Assembly (NCBI RefSeq): GCF_029607905.1
Contig: NZ_JAPHEH010000001.1
Span: 711,530-775,529 of the forward strand
DNA length: 64,000 nt
Source: Thiovibrio frasassiensis
GTDB lineage: Bacteria; Desulfobacterota; Desulfobulbia; Desulfobulbales; Desulfurivibrionaceae
Direction of reading: 5' to 3'
The notes under the pieces are model-generated. The model searched no databases. It had not been told where the DNA came from and worked only from the letters and a program-made list of their open reading frames with translations. Every line of letters starts with the position of its first letter. Within the stretch, counting starts at the first letter, position 1. A program made the position numbers and the translations under genes. Positions 4,712 through 21,550 of the stretch are shown in pieces.

Positions 4712-5464
4712 CTACTTGGCGGCGCTGAAGCTCCGAATGTAATAAACATTGGGCTTGGTGCCCTTCTCGGGCTTGAGAACCGTGCCCTTGTACTTTTTGA
4801 CCAACTGGGCGACCTCGCTGTTCTTGTCCTGAATGTCGCCGAAGGTTCTGGCCTTGGCCGGACAGGCAACCACGCAGTTGGGCAGCTCGCCCTTTTTCAC
4901 CCGGTGTTCGCAAAAGATGCATTTCTCGGTGATATTGCTGCGCCGCACATCCTGATAATCCGGATGGTCGTACTTGGTCCGATGGGGCGGGTTGTCGGTC
5001 TTGGCCGCCATTTCCGCCGGCGACATGGTGCAGCCGGGGATCATCTCACTCTTGTCGGCATAAAAGGGTTCATAGGGCTTGCCGTCCTCGTTGTAGCTGA
5101 TCACGCTGGTCTCGCCGCCCTTGACCTCCATCTTGGAATAGGGGCAGGCTTCCTGACAGGCGCGGCAGCCGATGCAGCGCTCGTCGTTGTGCATGGTGAT
5201 GCCGTCCTTGGTTTTGTACATCGCCTTGGGGGTCACCGGGCAGGCCTTGACACAAGGCGCATTGGCGCAGTGATTGCAGAGCACCGGTCTGGCCGTGTAT
5301 TTGGTTTTGGGGAACTTGCCGCTGGTTTCGTTCTGGAAATCGGCCCAATTATGGGCCTGCCCGAAGTTTCGGCCGGCGGTGTTGTTCTCCGTTTTGCAGG
5401 CCAGGGCGCAGGCCCCGCACCCAACGCACTTCTGAAGATCTATTACCATCGCATATTGCGTCAT
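4712..5464 (-). CDS. Four-cluster ferredoxin subunit of molybdoenzyme (ArrB/PsrB-like)
   Basis: A 250-residue electron-transfer subunit with four cysteine clusters: CVGCGACALACK near residue 13, CNHCANAPCVKACP, CIGCRACQEACP and CIFC...CVVACP. This is the DmsB/PsrB/ArrB layout that takes electrons from a quinol oxidase partner to the molybdopterin subunit. It ends in NVYYIRSF, which resembles the ArrB C-terminus. There is no signal peptide; such subunits are exported with the Tat-tagged partner. It lies 78 bases downstream of the catalytic gene. No NrfD-type membrane anchor is encoded nearby, as in the two-subunit ArrAB enzymes. Confidence 0.92.
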   Translation of the reverse strand: MTQYAMVIDLQKCVGCGACALACKTENNTAGRNFGQAHNWADFQNETSGKFPKTKYTARPVLCNHCANAPCVKACPVTPKAMYKTKDGITMHNDERCIGCRACQEACPYSKMEVKGGETSVISYNEDGKPYEPFYADKSEMIPGCTMSPAEMAAKTDNPPHRTKYDHPDYQDVRRSNITEKCIFCEHRVKKGELPNCVVACPAKARTFGDIQDKNSEVAQLVKKYKGTVLKPEKGTKPNVYYIRSFSAAK

Positions 5465-15574: not shown

Positions 15575-17161
15575 TCAGCTGTGCTCGCGGGTCTTGCGGA
15601 AGACGATCTCCGGAAACAACTCCTGGACCCTGCCCAACCGCCATTCGCTTTCCGCCAGATAGGCCAGATGCCCCTCGGCGTCCAGGGCCAGATGGGCCAG
15701 GTTCTTGCTCTTGAACGCATCGAGCTTCTTGCGGTCCTCGCAGTCGATCCAACGGGCAGTCGCATAGCTCACCGGCTCATACACCGCGTCCACCCCGTAT
15801 TCCGCCTTGAGTCGGGCCATGGTCACCTCAAACTGCAAAACCCCCACCGCGCCGAGAATATAGTCGCTGCCCATGGTCGGTCGAAAGAGCTGCACCGCGC
15901 CTTCCTCGGCCAGCTGCACCAGCCCCTTGTTCAGCTGCTTGATCTTAAGCGGATTCTTGATCAGCACCCGCCGAAAATGCTCGGGCGCAAAATTGGGGAT
16001 GCCGGTGAACTTGAGGGGCTCCTTGTCGGAGAAGGTGTCGCCGATCTTGATGGTCCCATGGTTGTGGATGCCGATAATGTCGCCGGGCCAGGCCTCCTCC
16101 ACATTGGTACGGTCCTGGGCCATGAAGATGGTGGCGTTGGCCAGGGCGACCTCCTTGCCGAGCCGGTGGTGCATGACCTTCATGCCCTTGGTGAACTTGC
16201 CGGAACAGATGCGGAAAAAGGCGATCCGGTCGCGGTGGGCCGGGTTCATGTTGGCCTGGATCTTAAAGGTGAAACCGGAAAAGGCTTCTTCGTCCGGGGA
16301 AACCATGCGGGTCGTGGTGGCGCGGGGTCCGGGCGGCGGGGCCAGCTCGACAAAGGCGTCCAGCAGCTCTTTCACCCCGAAGTTGTTGACGGCGCTGCCG
16401 AAGAAGACCGGCGTCTGGCTGGCCTTGAGATATTCCTTGTGGTCAAAGGGGCTGGCCGCCCCGGCCAGGAGTTCGAGGTCCTCGCGGAGCCGGTCTGCAT
16501 AGCTGCCCAACATCTGCTCCAAAAGAGGGTCATCCAGGTCCTTGACCATGATGGAGTCTTGGGGCCGCCGGTCCTTGCTGGGGGTGAAGAGATTCAGCTC
16601 CTGGCGCATGATATTATACACCCCCTTGAAGCCCTTACCCATGCCGATGGGCCAGGTAAGGGGGGTACACTCGATCTGCAGCTTCTCCTCAATCTCGCTC
16701 AGGATATCGAGAGGCTCGCGGCCCTCGCGGTCCAGCTTGTTGATGAAGGTGATCACCGGGGTATTGCGCATCCGGCACACTTCCATGAGCTTCTCGGTCT
16801 GGGCCTCGACCCCCTTGGCGCTGTCGATGACCATCAGGGCGCTGTCCACCGCGGTGAGTACCCGGTAGGTATCCTCGGAAAAATCCTTATGCCCGGGGGT
16901 GTCCAGCAGGTTGACCTCAAAGTCGCGGTAGTTGAACTGCATCACCGAGGTGGTCACCGAAATGCCCCGCTCCTTCTCGATCGCCATCCAGTCGCTGACC
17001 GCATGGTTGTCGGTTTTGCGCGACTTGACCGCCCCGGCCATCTGGATGGCCCCGCCAAAGAGCAGGAGCTTTTCCGTAAGGGTGGTCTTGCCCGCATCGG
17101 GATGACTGATGATGCCAAAGGTCCGGCGCCGCTTGATTTCTTTTTCCAATAGACTGCTCAT
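15575..17161 (-). CDS. prfC: Peptide chain release factor 3
   Basis: A 528-residue translational GTPase that recycles RF1/RF2 from the ribosome after termination. G motifs are SHPDAGKTT (G1), [14 protein letters not shown] (G3) and NKLDREGR (G4), and the RF3-specific stretches [10 protein letters not shown] and VGVLQFEV are present. Length matches the family (about 528). The start MSSLLEKEI at 17161 is supported by AAGGAG 7 bases upstream. It is transcribed away from the RNA methyltransferase gene, with about 260 bp between the two starts. Confidence 0.96.
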
Positions 17162-17384
17162 GTGCTCCTTCTCTCTCTGCTTTCCAGGTCGAAACCCGAC
17201 CCACGGAACAGCGTATATACTCCAAAAAACGCATTTTGTCAGCAAGTTCCGCAGAATCTCCGTCCGCAAAAACAGCGCCCTCTCCCCCTCCTCAGCGCAG
17301 CACCGGAGAAAAAACGACAACCACTCCTCCCTTGCCTCCCATGGCCTTGGGACGAATTTGCTTTATGCATCTCCGACTGGGGTG

Positions 17385-17390
17385 TATACT
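17385..17390 (+). promoter_or_regulatory. Possible -10 box of the RNA methyltransferase gene
   Basis: TATACT at 17385-17390 would place a transcript start near 17397, shortly before the candidate GTG (17421) and TTG (17430) starts of the methyltransferase. The -35 hexamer at proper spacing (TTTATG, 17362-17367) is poor. Confidence 0.3.
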
Positions 17391-17420
17391 TTTTTTATTT
17401 CTTCCCCTTCTTTCTTTGTG

Positions 17421-19397
17421 GTGACCCCCTTGTCTTTCAAGAAAAAAACGACAACCCGAAAATCAAGCCCCAGCCAAGCCGGCAGCCCGCGCAAACCCTC
17501 TGCCCCCGGCCGGTCGTCTGGCGGCCGAAAAACAACACCGCGAGAAAAACCCTTCGGTCAAAAAAACCAACGGCCGGGAGCGGAGGCTGCTTCCCCTCGC
17601 GGCCATAGCTTCACCAGAGGCAAAAAACCGCAGTCGGCAAACTCCGACGAGGAATGGTTCGAAACGCCTTCCAGAGCATCCGGTCGCCCGCCCGCCAATA
17701 AGCGGAAAGCATCTCCCGACAAACCATTCGCCCAAAAAGGTCCTCGGCCGGACGCTGCTTCTTCACGCGGTCGTGCTTTCACCGGGGCCAGAAAACCACA
17801 AGCGGCACGATCCGAGGAAGAAAACTTCCGGAAACCTGCCACGGCTTCTGATCGCCCATCCAGCACCAAGAGAAAATCTCCGGCTGAAAGACCCTTCGAG
17901 AAAAAAAACCCCAGGCCCGGCGCTGCTTCCGCGCCCGGTCGCGGCAGAAAGCCGCGGGCGGAAAGTTGCGAATTCGGGGATGAACCCTGCCGTGCACCTG
18001 CCTCGTCACCCGACCGCCCACCCAGCCGCAAGAGAAAATCAGCACCCAAAAAAACCTTCGGCCCAAAAACCCGCAGGTCCGCCGCTGATTCCTCTCCCGA
18101 TCGTGGATTTAAAAGCGCCGGAAAATCACAGCCGGAAAGATCCGAAGAGGAACTGTTTTGGGCCCCTGCCGAGCCAAGCGATCGCTCCTTTGCCACCTTT
18201 CTCAAACCGCTCATTCCGGCACCGGCTTCCCCGGAGGAGGCCCGGACCATTCTCTACAGCTCTCCCTTGGCCCATCTCGATTATTCCGTTGAGCTGCAGA
18301 TTAAAGACCAGGGATTGCTCGCCTTCTGGAAACAACACCGCCTCGCCGGGCAGCCGGAACAGATAATCCGCTCCCCCAAAGCCCGGGGCTACCGCACGAC
18401 CTCAAAACGCAAGGCCTTCCTCCACGGCTCCACCCTCTACCTGCTACTGGGGGACAAAGCCGCTCTGCCCAAAAACCGGCAGTATTTCACCGCCTCACCG
18501 CTTGAGCCCACAGAACACGAGGTTATCTACCGCTTTCTCCAGCAGAAGCTCAGCGAACCCGCCTTCCGGCTCATCGCCGGCCATCTCAACTATCTCATCA
18601 TCCGCGGCAATTACACGGAACAGGCGGTAATCTTCAATGTGGACCTGATGAACGGGCCGCTGGTCCGCAAGATGAAACTGCTGAGCGCACATCTCCAGAA
18701 GCTTCCGGTCGCGGTCACCGCCGCTTTCGTCTACCTTGACCCCACCCAGTCCGACTACTATCTGGAGAGCAAACGCCCGGCGGAGACCCTCCATTTCAAA
18801 AAGCTCTTCGGCCCGGATCAGCTGGGGGCCACCTACTGCGGCTGCCGCTACCAGTTCCACCCGACCTCGTTTTCCCAGATCAACGAATCCATGGTGGAAA
18901 CCATGCTGGAACGGGCCAAAGAGCTGCTGGCCCCGAGCCAGGAGCAAGCGCTCCTCGACCTGTACTGCGGCTACGGGCTGTTCAGCCATTTTCTCGCCCC
19001 CGCTTACCGGCAGGTGCTGGCCGTTGACGGCGAAGGCCCATCCATTCGGGCCGCCGAGGCCAATAGCCGGTTGAACCAGAAACGGGGCGGCCAGGCCAAA
19101 TTTCTCGCCCATCGGATTACCGTCGGATATCTGGAAAAAACCCTGCCGCCCCCCATGGCCAACGAAACAATCCTCCTCGACCCGCCCCGCCAAGGCCCGC
19201 TCCCTGGGGTGATCGCCTCCCTGGCCCGGAGGAAGCCGAAAAAGGCCCTCCATATCTTCTGCGGGGTGGACCAGATCCCCCCCTCCCTGAGAGAATGGCA
19301 GGCCAACGGCTACCAGGTGCGGCGCATCGCCCCCCTGGACATGTTTCCCGGCTCGGCCAATCTCGAAATCATGATTCTGTTGGAACCAAAGGCGTGA
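17421..19397 (+). CDS. TrmA/RlmD-like RNA uracil-C5 methyltransferase with long repetitive N-terminal tail
   Basis: A protein of about 658 residues with two parts. Residues 1-260 are low-complexity, very rich in Lys, Arg, Ser and Pro, with four repeats of about 54 residues. Each begins KRK-S-P..KPF..K..RP.A and carries an acidic SEEE-like patch before SDRP. The C-terminal 380 residues form a class I SAM methyltransferase of the RNA m5U type: FSQINESMVE, SAM site LLDLYCGYGLF (about 511), DPPRQGP (about 587) and the likely catalytic Cys in HIFCGVD (about 613). No TRAM domain or Fe-S cysteines are seen. No ATG fits; GTG 17421 or TTG 17430 is likely. The target RNA is unknown. Confidence 0.85.
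   Translation: MTPLSFKKKTTTRKSSPSQAGSPRKPSAPGRSSGGRKTTPREKPFGQKNQRPGAEAASPRGHSFTRGKKPQSANSDEEWFETPSRASGRPPANKRKASPDKPFAQKGPRPDAASSRGRAFTGARKPQAARSEEENFRKPATASDRPSSTKRKSPAERPFEKKNPRPGAASAPGRGRKPRAESCEFGDEPCRAPASSPDRPPSRKRKSAPKKTFGPKTRRSAADSSPDRGFKSAGKSQPERSEEELFWAPAEPSDRSFATFLKPLIPAPASPEEARTILYSSPLAHLDYSVELQIKDQGLLAFWKQHRLAGQPEQIIRSPKARGYRTTSKRKAFLHGSTLYLLLGDKAALPKNRQYFTASPLEPTEHEVIYRFLQQKLSEPAFRLIAGHLNYLIIRGNYTEQAVIFNVDLMNGPLVRKMKLLSAHLQKLPVAVTAAFVYLDPTQSDYYLESKRPAETLHFKKLFGPDQLGATYCGCRYQFHPTSFSQINESMVETMLERAKELLAPSQEQALLDLYCGYGLFSHFLAPAYRQVLAVDGEGPSIRAAEANSRLNQKRGGQAKFLAHRITVGYLEKTLPPPMANETILLDPPRQGPLPGVIASLARRKPKKALHIFCGVDQIPPSLREWQANGYQVRRIAPLDMFPGSANLEIMILLEPKA
17518..18195 (+). repeat. 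Four in-frame ~160-bp repeats encoding a disordered basic tail
   Basis: This part of the methyltransferase gene encodes four diverged units of about 54 codons, recognised by recurring KRK(S/A), KPF..K..RP, (S/D)EEE and (S/D)RP. The protein repeats are clearer than the DNA repeats, so the duplication is old or the motif is under selection. Confidence 0.7.
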
Positions 19398-19435: not shown

Positions 19436-21550
19436 ATGGCCCAAAGCGTGTACATCGTGGCAATCGGCCCCCAGAGCGGCAAATCCGTGGTCGCCCTCGG
19501 CATTATGGAGCTCTTGTCCCGCCGTTTGCGCCGGGTCGGCTACTTTCGTCCCATCATTCCCTCGCATGCGGCCGCAGACAACAACCTGCAATTGATCAAA
19601 TTACGGTACCGCCTTGCCTTTGACTACGATGAAATGTTCGCCCTCTCCCACGACGAGGCGCAGCATCTTACCGCCGAAGGGCGCACCGACCAGATCCTCA
19701 AAACCATTCTCAACAAGTACCGGCAGCTGGAAAGCAAGTGCGATTTTATCCTCTGCGAGGGCACCGATTTCAGCGGCCTTTCCCTGCCCTTTGAGTTCGA
19801 GTTCAACGCCGAGGTGGTGAACAACCTGGGCTGCACTATCATGTTGCTCTTGAACTGCCACAACAAATCCCCGGCAGACATCCTCGACGCCCTGCATGTA
19901 GCCCAAGATTCCTTCCTCAAGAAGGGGTGCACCATCCTGGCCAGCGTGGTCAACCGGGTCGACCCCCTGCTCATGGGGACGGTACGGGAAAAATTAACCG
20001 AATACGGCCAGGGCGCAGGGCCGGTATATATCCTGCCGGAGGAACCGTTTTTAGGCAAACCAACGGTGGGGGAGATCGCCAAGGCTCTCGACGCCCAGAT
20101 TCTCATGTGCGATCCGGAAGAGATGAACCGCGAGGTGTCCGACTTCAAGGTGGCGGCCATGAATCTGCCCCATTTTCTCGACCATCTGGTGGAAGGCGAC
20201 CTGATCATCGCGCCGGGCGACCGTTCGGATATCATCCTCGGCAGTCTGGCCGCCAACTTCTCCAGCACCTACCCGAGCATCGCCGGCTTGCTCCTCTCGG
20301 GCGGCTTCGTTCCGGACCCCCAGATTTCCCTGCTTCTTCAGGGCTTGAGCTACCGCGGCACTGTCCCCATCATCAGCGTGCAGACCGACACCTATACCAC
20401 GGCCATGAACGCCAGCGCCGTACCTCCCATGCTGACCCCGGAAAACGACCGCAAGATTGCCGCCGCCCTGGGTCTTTTTGAGACACATATCGACCTGGCC
20501 GAGCTGGAAGGGAGGATCTCCCTTATAAAATCCACGCGGGTCACGCCGCTGATGTTCGAATACAACCTGGTGGAGATGGCCCAGAAGCAACGGCAACACA
20601 TCGTCCTGCCCGAAGGCGCGGAGGAACGGATTCTGCGAGCCAGCGAGATGCTTACCCGGCGCGGGGTGGCACAGATCACCCTGCTGGGCGACCCCGCCGA
20701 GATTCGCTCCACGGCCAGCAATCTCGGCCTCAGCCTATCGGGCATCGAAATTATTGATCCGCTCACCTCCGCTTTGCGCACAGACTTTGCCCAAACCTAT
20801 TTCGCGCTCCGCCAGCACAAGGGGATTACCGAAAAGACCGCCTTTGACACGGTGGGGGACGTCAACTACTTTGGCACCATGATGATCCACAAGGGGTTGG
20901 CCGACGGCATGGTTTCCGGGGCGGTGCACACCACCGGCGACACCATCCGCCCTGCTCTGCAGATCATCCGCACCCAGCCGGATGTTTCTCTTGTTTCCAG
21001 CGTCTTCCTGATGTGCCTTGCCGACCGGGTCCTGGTCTACGGCGACTGCGCGGTAAACCCAGAGCCCAACGCCCAGCAGCTGGCGGAGATCGCCATAAGT
21101 TCGGCGCAAACCGCCAAGCTCTATGGCATTGACCCCCTGGTCGCCATGTGCTCCTATGCCACGGGTGCCTCGGGCAAGGGCGCCGATGTGGACAAGGTGC
21201 GCGAGGCAACCCGGATCGCGAAAGAACTTCGGCCTGAGCTCAAGATCGAGGGACCGATCCAGTACGATGCCGCCGTGGACGCCGGGGTGGCGAAAACCAA
21301 GCTGCCGGAGAGCCAGGTGGCGGGCAAGGCCACGGTCTTCATCTTCCCGGATCTGAACACCGGCAACAACCTGTACAAGGCGGTACAGCGCTCGGCCAAC
21401 GCCGTGGCCATCGGCCCGGTGCTCCAGGGGTTGAACAAGCCGGTCAACGACCTGAGCCGGGGCTGCACGGTGCCCGACATCGTCAACACCGTGGCCATCA
21501 CCGCCATCCAGGCCCAGGCCGCCCGTACAAGCCAAGGAAAAACTCCATGA
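19436..21550 (+). CDS. pta: Phosphate acetyltransferase with DRTGG domain
   Basis: A 704-residue long-form Pta that interconverts acetyl-CoA and acetyl phosphate. The N-terminal P-loop-like domain starts IGPQSGKSVVALGIMELL, a central DRTGG domain spans about 215-325 (APGDRSDIILG), and the C-terminal catalytic PTA_PTB domain starts near QRQHIVLPEGAEERILRA. Catalytic-domain motifs include DGMVSGAVHTTGDTIRPALQ and SRGCTVPDIVNT. It overlaps ackA by ATGA, the usual acetate operon. In an anaerobe this serves energy-conserving acetate production or acetate activation. Confidence 0.96.
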   Translation: MAQSVYIVAIGPQSGKSVVALGIMELLSRRLRRVGYFRPIIPSHAAADNNLQLIKLRYRLAFDYDEMFALSHDEAQHLTAEGRTDQILKTILNKYRQLESKCDFILCEGTDFSGLSLPFEFEFNAEVVNNLGCTIMLLLNCHNKSPADILDALHVAQDSFLKKGCTILASVVNRVDPLLMGTVREKLTEYGQGAGPVYILPEEPFLGKPTVGEIAKALDAQILMCDPEEMNREVSDFKVAAMNLPHFLDHLVEGDLIIAPGDRSDIILGSLAANFSSTYPSIAGLLLSGGFVPDPQISLLLQGLSYRGTVPIISVQTDTYTTAMNASAVPPMLTPENDRKIAAALGLFETHIDLAELEGRISLIKSTRVTPLMFEYNLVEMAQKQRQHIVLPEGAEERILRASEMLTRRGVAQITLLGDPAEIRSTASNLGLSLSGIEIIDPLTSALRTDFAQTYFALRQHKGITEKTAFDTVGDVNYFGTMMIHKGLADGMVSGAVHTTGDTIRPALQIIRTQPDVSLVSSVFLMCLADRVLVYGDCAVNPEPNAQQLAEIAISSAQTAKLYGIDPLVAMCSYATGASGKGADVDKVREATRIAKELRPELKIEGPIQYDAAVDAGVAKTKLPESQVAGKATVFIFPDLNTGNNLYKAVQRSANAVAIGPVLQGLNKPVNDLSRGCTVPDIVNTVAITAIQAQAARTSQGKTP

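Follow-up and report, generated by a model that had tools for sequence, protein, structure and literature searches.

A predicted RNA uracil methyltransferase of Thiovibrio frasassiensis carries a basic, repeat-built N-terminal tail whose unit number varies within the genus

The window analyzed here, a 64,000-nucleotide stretch of the T. frasassiensis genome (contig NZ_JAPHEH010000001.1, positions 711,530 to 775,529 of the forward strand), encodes a methyltransferase whose catalytic part is preceded by a long basic tail built of four related units. We propose, and would give an even chance, that this protein is a SAM-dependent RNA uracil-C5 methyltransferase in which a tail grown by duplication would serve as a multivalent electrostatic RNA tether, with U747 of 23S rRNA as the likely target. 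The enzyme type is known and its chemistry is ordinary; the novelty is the variation in the tail.

Results

One gene lies inside the forward-strand open frame at 17109-19397, with the TTG at 17430 as its start and the stop codon ending at 19397. The 655-residue product (numbered with the TTG codon as 1) comprises a 27-residue basic leader, four tail units, and a 400-residue catalytic part that begins at 18195. The preliminary description had placed the start at 17421, which we correct to 17430: a GTG is in frame at 17421 in the window and in one congener (L033) only, and GGT replaces it in the other congeners. The features of the gene are as follows.

17349..17400, forward strand: conserved leader block (GGGACGAATTTGCTTTATGCAT...GTGTATACTTTTTTTATTT) of the aligned genus loci, promoter-like by position
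17420..17424, forward strand: GGTGA Shine-Dalgarno-like site, found in 15/15 genus loci
17430..17510, forward strand: TTG start, then the basic leader that opens the tail, 27 residues; TTG in 15/15 genus loci
17511..17684, forward strand: tail unit 1, 58 residues, from the unit alignment
17685..17852, forward strand: tail unit 2, 56 residues, NKRK ... SEEE, from the unit alignment
17853..18014, forward strand: tail unit 3, 54 residues, TKRK ... CEFGDEPC, from the unit alignment
18015..18194, forward strand: tail unit 4, 60 residues, RKRK ... SEEELFWAP ... DRSFA, from the unit alignment
18195..19397, forward strand: catalytic part (central and SAM-binding domains, TrmA/RlmC/RlmD fold), stop codon included, from PF05958 and a structure search

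GGTGA with a TTG close behind it is present in every genus genome having the gene (15/15). The leader block is kept in 12 of 13 aligned genus loci (L018 and L040 were left out of this alignment) and is absent from L042; we infer from its position that it is a promoter, and a sigma-70 consensus scan returned nothing above its threshold. No further in-frame ATG, GTG, or TTG occurs in codons 1 to 278 of the window's gene, and the first one, at codon 279, falls within conserved residues. Across the genus, 8 of 15 tails lack an internal in-frame start, and the other seven have one or two, at no position common to more than three loci. Because the Shine-Dalgarno-like site and TTG are kept in all 15 loci, the window's tail has no in-frame start inside it, the leader block is conserved, and tail dN/dS ratios are 0.26 to 0.59, the 255-residue tail is very probably translated. 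A protein that begins at the catalytic part, with the tail untranslated, would fit a start codon that is TTG and a consensus scan without a sigma-70 site, but we find this reading scarcely credible, since the next possible start lies inside conserved residues, the start region and leader block are so widely kept, and tail dN/dS is below 1. A 230-residue open frame runs antisense to the tail (window 17558-18250, reverse strand) and is probably a by-product of tail composition.

Two genes flank the methyltransferase gene.

15575..17161, reverse strand: divergent neighbor, which we take to be prfC-like; matched in 14 of 15 genus loci (not L042)
19436..21550, forward strand: downstream neighbor, presumably pta-like, 38 bases past the methyltransferase stop codon

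The prfC-like gene was also matched in 5 of 16 loci from other genera, which hold at most 1.5 kb upstream. The pta-like gene, possibly co-transcribed with the methyltransferase gene, was matched in the genus loci with enough downstream DNA and was unmatched in the 16 other-genus loci.

The preliminary description had called the enzyme TrmA-like, and profile and structure searches agree. The catalytic part matches PF05958 (E 3.6e-17; cut-off 23 bits, with 60.4 for the whole protein and 62.9 when the catalytic part is scored by itself), and the nearest bacterial solved structures are RlmCD (5zq0; Z 39.2, 371 residues, 2.4 A), RumA (2bh2; Z 36.0), and TrmA (3bt7; Z 34.0), with alignments spanning 342 to 374 residues. 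C611, which we take to be the catalytic Cys, DPP 584-586, E646, and the SAM-binding LDLYCGxG align with E. coli RlmD, RlmC, and TrmA and are invariant or nearly so in a 26-sequence alignment; the roles of the Cys, DPP, and C-terminal Glu are presumed. The catalytic residues are kept, and the predicted function is probably that of an RNA uracil-C5 methyltransferase.

Assignment within the superfamily is less direct. E. coli RlmD, RlmC, and TrmA are each 20-23% identical to the protein, which scores below the cut-off of the RlmD model TIGR00479 (100.4 bits, or 102.0 for the catalytic part, versus 183.55), a second RlmD model (99.2 versus 458), the TrmA model TIGR02143 (57.9 versus 334.65), and the RlmC models TIGR02085 (37.6 versus 429.5), NF002909 (49.5 versus 553), NF002910 (52.8 versus 558), and NF002913 (24.9 versus 537). 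The best NCBIfam score is to RlmD, not RlmC; because of this and the near-equal identities, the target is not readable from similarity. By sequence the protein belongs to a separate clade of the TrmA/RlmC/RlmD superfamily and is not filed as RlmC, RlmD, or TrmA.

The reported lack of a TRAM domain holds: a TRAM profile search listed no match in the methyltransferase at E up to 1, and both the RlmD-family paralogue of the same genome (L002) and E. coli RlmD, run as controls, were positive. The structure search is uninformative on this point, as for the TRAM-bearing chains heading its list the alignment begins at model residue 254 or slightly ahead of it. The cysteines of the CxxxxxCxxC region, presumably an Fe-S site, are absent at the aligned place in a comparison with the E. 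coli enzymes. Absence of TRAM is itself ordinary: neither RlmC nor TrmA of E. coli gives a match, and PMC6235398 likewise describes RlmC without TRAM.

The closest known enzymes each share some of these features. E. coli RlmC (23S m5U747) shares the superfamily, the catalytic residues, and the lack of a TRAM match but has an N-terminal Cys cluster and no tail and is 21% identical. E. coli RlmD/RumA gives the best profile score but has both TRAM and the Cys cluster, and Streptococcus pneumoniae RlmCD, the nearest fold, differs in its N-terminal TRAM. E. coli TrmA (tRNA m5U54) is alike in fold and in having neither a TRAM match nor an aligned Cys cluster; it differs in that the TrmA model score lies below cut-off and that T. 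frasassiensis has TrmFO for m5U54.

The RNA target was approached by elimination. Among 116 sampled genomes (17 of the genus, including T. frasassiensis, 10 others of the family, and 89 others of the order), TrmFO was above cut-off in 104 and the RlmD family in 102, T. frasassiensis being included in both counts; its RlmD-family paralogue, L002, carries TRAM and CxxxxxCxxC. With TrmFO (tRNA U54) and this TRAM-bearing paralogue (U1939) in the genome, 23S U747 would be left as the classical m5U site that lacks an enzyme, and it is our guess at the most likely target. The presence of TrmFO makes tRNA U54 an unlikely one. The 23S rRNA of T. frasassiensis keeps GUUG at E. coli positions 745-748; the E. 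coli hairpin-35 pattern was not found in this genome at up to three mismatches because the stem differs.

The four tail units that had been described are present at 17511-18194. The acidic SEEE patches attributed to them occur in units 2 and 4, with SDEEW in unit 1 and CEFGDEPC in unit 3 instead. Read by eye from the unit alignment, the consensus is roughly RPSSxKRKSPxEKPFxKKxRRPGAAxxRGRxFTGxRKPxxERSEEExFRxPAxATD. The repeat is beyond chance: the best off-diagonal score in a self-alignment of the tail is 196, versus a shuffle mean of 65.4 (sd 8.6; maximum 90, n = 200; z 15.2), and each of the 12 of 15 genus tails tested exceeded all 200 of its own shuffles (z 6.5 to 25.3). Unit copies are 63-75% alike in DNA, and Tandem Repeats Finder reported no array in the tail DNA. 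We also considered that the tail might be a repeat occurring elsewhere in the same genome; we set this aside, as a genome search at E up to 10 returned the tail itself alone.

The tail carries a net charge of +34, with 61 K/R (33 Arg, 28 Lys) and 27 D/E among 88 charges, and the acidic residues may partly neutralize the basic patches within it. G, P, S, A, and T make up 53% of its residues, and hydrophobic or aromatic residues make up 7% (7-12% across the genus). An AlphaFold2 model built on a 26-sequence alignment has pLDDT below 50 over residues 1-250 and a loop at 441-453 and at least 90 for 260 of the remaining residues; together with the net charge, this points to the basic, disordered tail that had been expected. 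Alternating basic and acidic blocks, the abundance of Arg and Lys, spaced aromatics, and the repeats themselves would suit an IDR whose multivalency drives condensate formation or brings the enzyme into RNA-rich bodies. We regard that role as improbable, given so few hydrophobic or aromatic residues in the window's tail and the far shorter tails that suffice in other genera.

The family is held by 39 of the 116 genomes (15/17 of the genus, 2/10 others of the family, and 22/89 others of the order). Holders match at E up to 1.7e-31, the next match (4.6e-24) being an RlmD-family place, and the weakest holder (G092) is a piece containing an internal stop. The two genus genomes without a match, G009 and G016, are 88% and 85% complete, respectively. 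As 77 of the 116 genomes, some of them incomplete, gave no match to the family, members of the order can do without the modification, if it is real. A search at E 1e-50 of 395 genomes sampled across the phylum gave T. frasassiensis as the sole match, a weak test in that the tally omits the other 38 holders and the threshold misses distant members. Plasmid records gave 47 matches, all below 60% identity, and 4 of the 5 matches listed are annotated rlmD.

Comparison of homologs for repeat number, as the preliminary description had suggested, revealed two, three, or four units among congeners: four in 5 genomes, three in 2, and two in 8 (L018 is counted among the last although an insert sits in its first unit). 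The tail is at least 140 residues long in all 15 genus genomes having the gene. Outside the genus, tails were read in 16 of 24 holders; these 16 frames stay open upstream, so that the relatives need not start directly at the catalytic domain, and from the first possible start they extend 28 to 111 residues (upper limits; in L019 this start is probably too early) with net charges of +4 to +20. Net charge is positive in every one of the 15 genus and 16 other-genus tails. A basic N-terminal tail therefore looks general to the family, whereas growth by units is seen in this genus only; the claim that a long repeat tail is unusual for the enzyme class stands with the addition that shorter basic tails occur in these relatives. 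The tail at L015:2704-3036 (reverse strand), which belongs to a different genus of this family and is up to 111 residues long, seemingly has basic repeats of its own, of the KGRRPAAKGKRP kind. Among the open-licence texts listed as matches in a literature search, none described an enzyme of the TrmA/RlmC/RlmD type with a disordered tail made of repeats.

The tail evolves faster than the enzyme it precedes. Its dN/dS ratios (0.26-0.59, 10 pairs) compare with 0.02-0.13 for the catalytic part (9 pairs), and amino acid identity between congeners is 47-91% in the tail versus 88-99% in the catalytic part. Charge class is kept in 112 of 152 single-base amino acid differences (6 pairs, possibly affected by recombination between species), versus 60% expected (p 0.0005). 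The tail is thus loosely constrained, in frame and in charge class. These data bear on whether the tail grew by repetition as a nearly neutral extension whose units are gained and lost by recombination, tolerated while frame and solubility hold, and which adds little beyond the short basic tails of other genera. Differing unit numbers in close relatives, the rapid amino acid change, and a palindromic repeat carried in frame by the L018 tail all favor such an extension; dN/dS below 1 in 10/10 pairs, charge class kept above expectation, and the length retained in every genus holder speak against it, and we consider it possible but somewhat unlikely.

Synonymous divergence between the window and L033 is lower in the tail (dS 0.212) than in the catalytic part (0.543). 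Sliding divergence places a low-divergence tract at 16830-17830, beginning some 600 bases before the start codon and covering the 5' end of prfC, the leader (0.061), and the tail as far as its middle, where divergence jumps. Three other pairs (L038-L046, L045-L046, and L041-L045) show no tail dS deficit; in L036-L037 and L036-L039 tail dS is also low, and the alignment used is not collinear across their upstream regions. Because the tract spans the upstream region to mid-tail and three pairs lack the deficit, recombination is a simpler cause for window-L033 than overlapping constraint, which we set aside. A tract that ends inside the tail suggests that tail exchange occurs. When 40 units drawn from 14 tails were placed in a tree, a weak one of short sequences, window units 3 and 4 (17853-18194) grouped with units of L033, L041, L045, L038, and L046, the last four of which are a clade apart in the tree of the catalytic part; by these groupings, either the CEFxxEPC-unit form would be old or tails would have been exchanged between lineages.

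In three congeners, a dispersed, MITE-like repeat of 102 bases was found after GGQAK in the catalytic domain.

L042:4901-5206 (genome G008): three tandem in-frame copies
L043:4901-5164 (genome G014): one in-frame copy, interrupted by a palindromic element of about 155 bases at 4946-5100
L018:2401-2423 with L047:1-92 (genome G012): at least part of one copy; the contig breaks there

The repeat has at least 125 matches, many of them partial, across eight genus genomes: 27, 27, and at least 40 in the G008/G014/G012 group and 4 to 8 in each of the other five. Of 15 other repeat loci, 14 have no open frame reaching 20 codons past both ends, and one (L065) lies inside a doubtful 130-residue frame. 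The three repeat-bearing congeners form one clade in the catalytic-part tree (support 0.969), and the shared site suggests that the insertion is ancestral in them. Among them, dN/dS is 0.07-0.08 before the insertion site (three pairs) and 0.08 after it (one pair); if the insertion is ancestral, these ratios mean that the gene stayed under purifying selection with the repeat in place. The palindromic element of about 155 bases is also in frame in the tail of L018 (1084-1235), and several congeners have similar copies downstream of the gene, at a distance of about 2.2-2.5 kb. Palindromic elements inside Rickettsia proteins resemble these in-gene repeats. Of 8 genus genomes, 7 have a REP-type transposase (PF01797) above cut-off, at one to five places each; it was rejected as the source of the MITE-like repeat, as no link to the repeat was shown.

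Discussion

In our proposal, the net-positive, disordered tail would have grown in this genus by duplication of a unit of about 56 residues. It would act as a multivalent, fuzzy electrostatic tether that binds RNA nonspecifically and keeps the enzyme near its target, rRNA, and it would stand in for a folded module that binds RNA, such as TRAM. The tail probably helps the enzyme hold RNA. Its changing number of units and its rapid divergence are compatible with a property set by charge and length and not by the exact sequence, and also with a spacer under weak constraint. The TRAM analogy is weak because, as reported for RlmCD (PMC6235398), RNA between TRAM and the catalytic domain proved functionally irrelevant, and recognition contacts were assigned to residues of the central domain.

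A bolder form of this proposal, in which a clade of bacterial rRNA methyltransferases would use a copy-number-variable multivalent tail instead of TRAM to bind pre-rRNA and concentrate it locally, with affinity tuned between species by unit number, seems to us unlikely, if a little less so than a condensate role. Disordered extensions on RNA-acting proteins are known from ribosomal proteins (PMC2672003) and from the noncatalytic region of RNase E (PMC4435900); the tail here is unlike them in being made of 54- to 60-residue units whose number varies between congeners.

The repeat-bearing congeners indicate that such a methyltransferase can go on evolving, and stay under purifying selection, while a mobile repeat lies in frame in its catalytic domain. 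The genus and its relatives also provide a natural series, from a short nonrepeat tail to two, three, and four units on closely related catalytic domains, in which the effect of the tail may be measured unit by unit.
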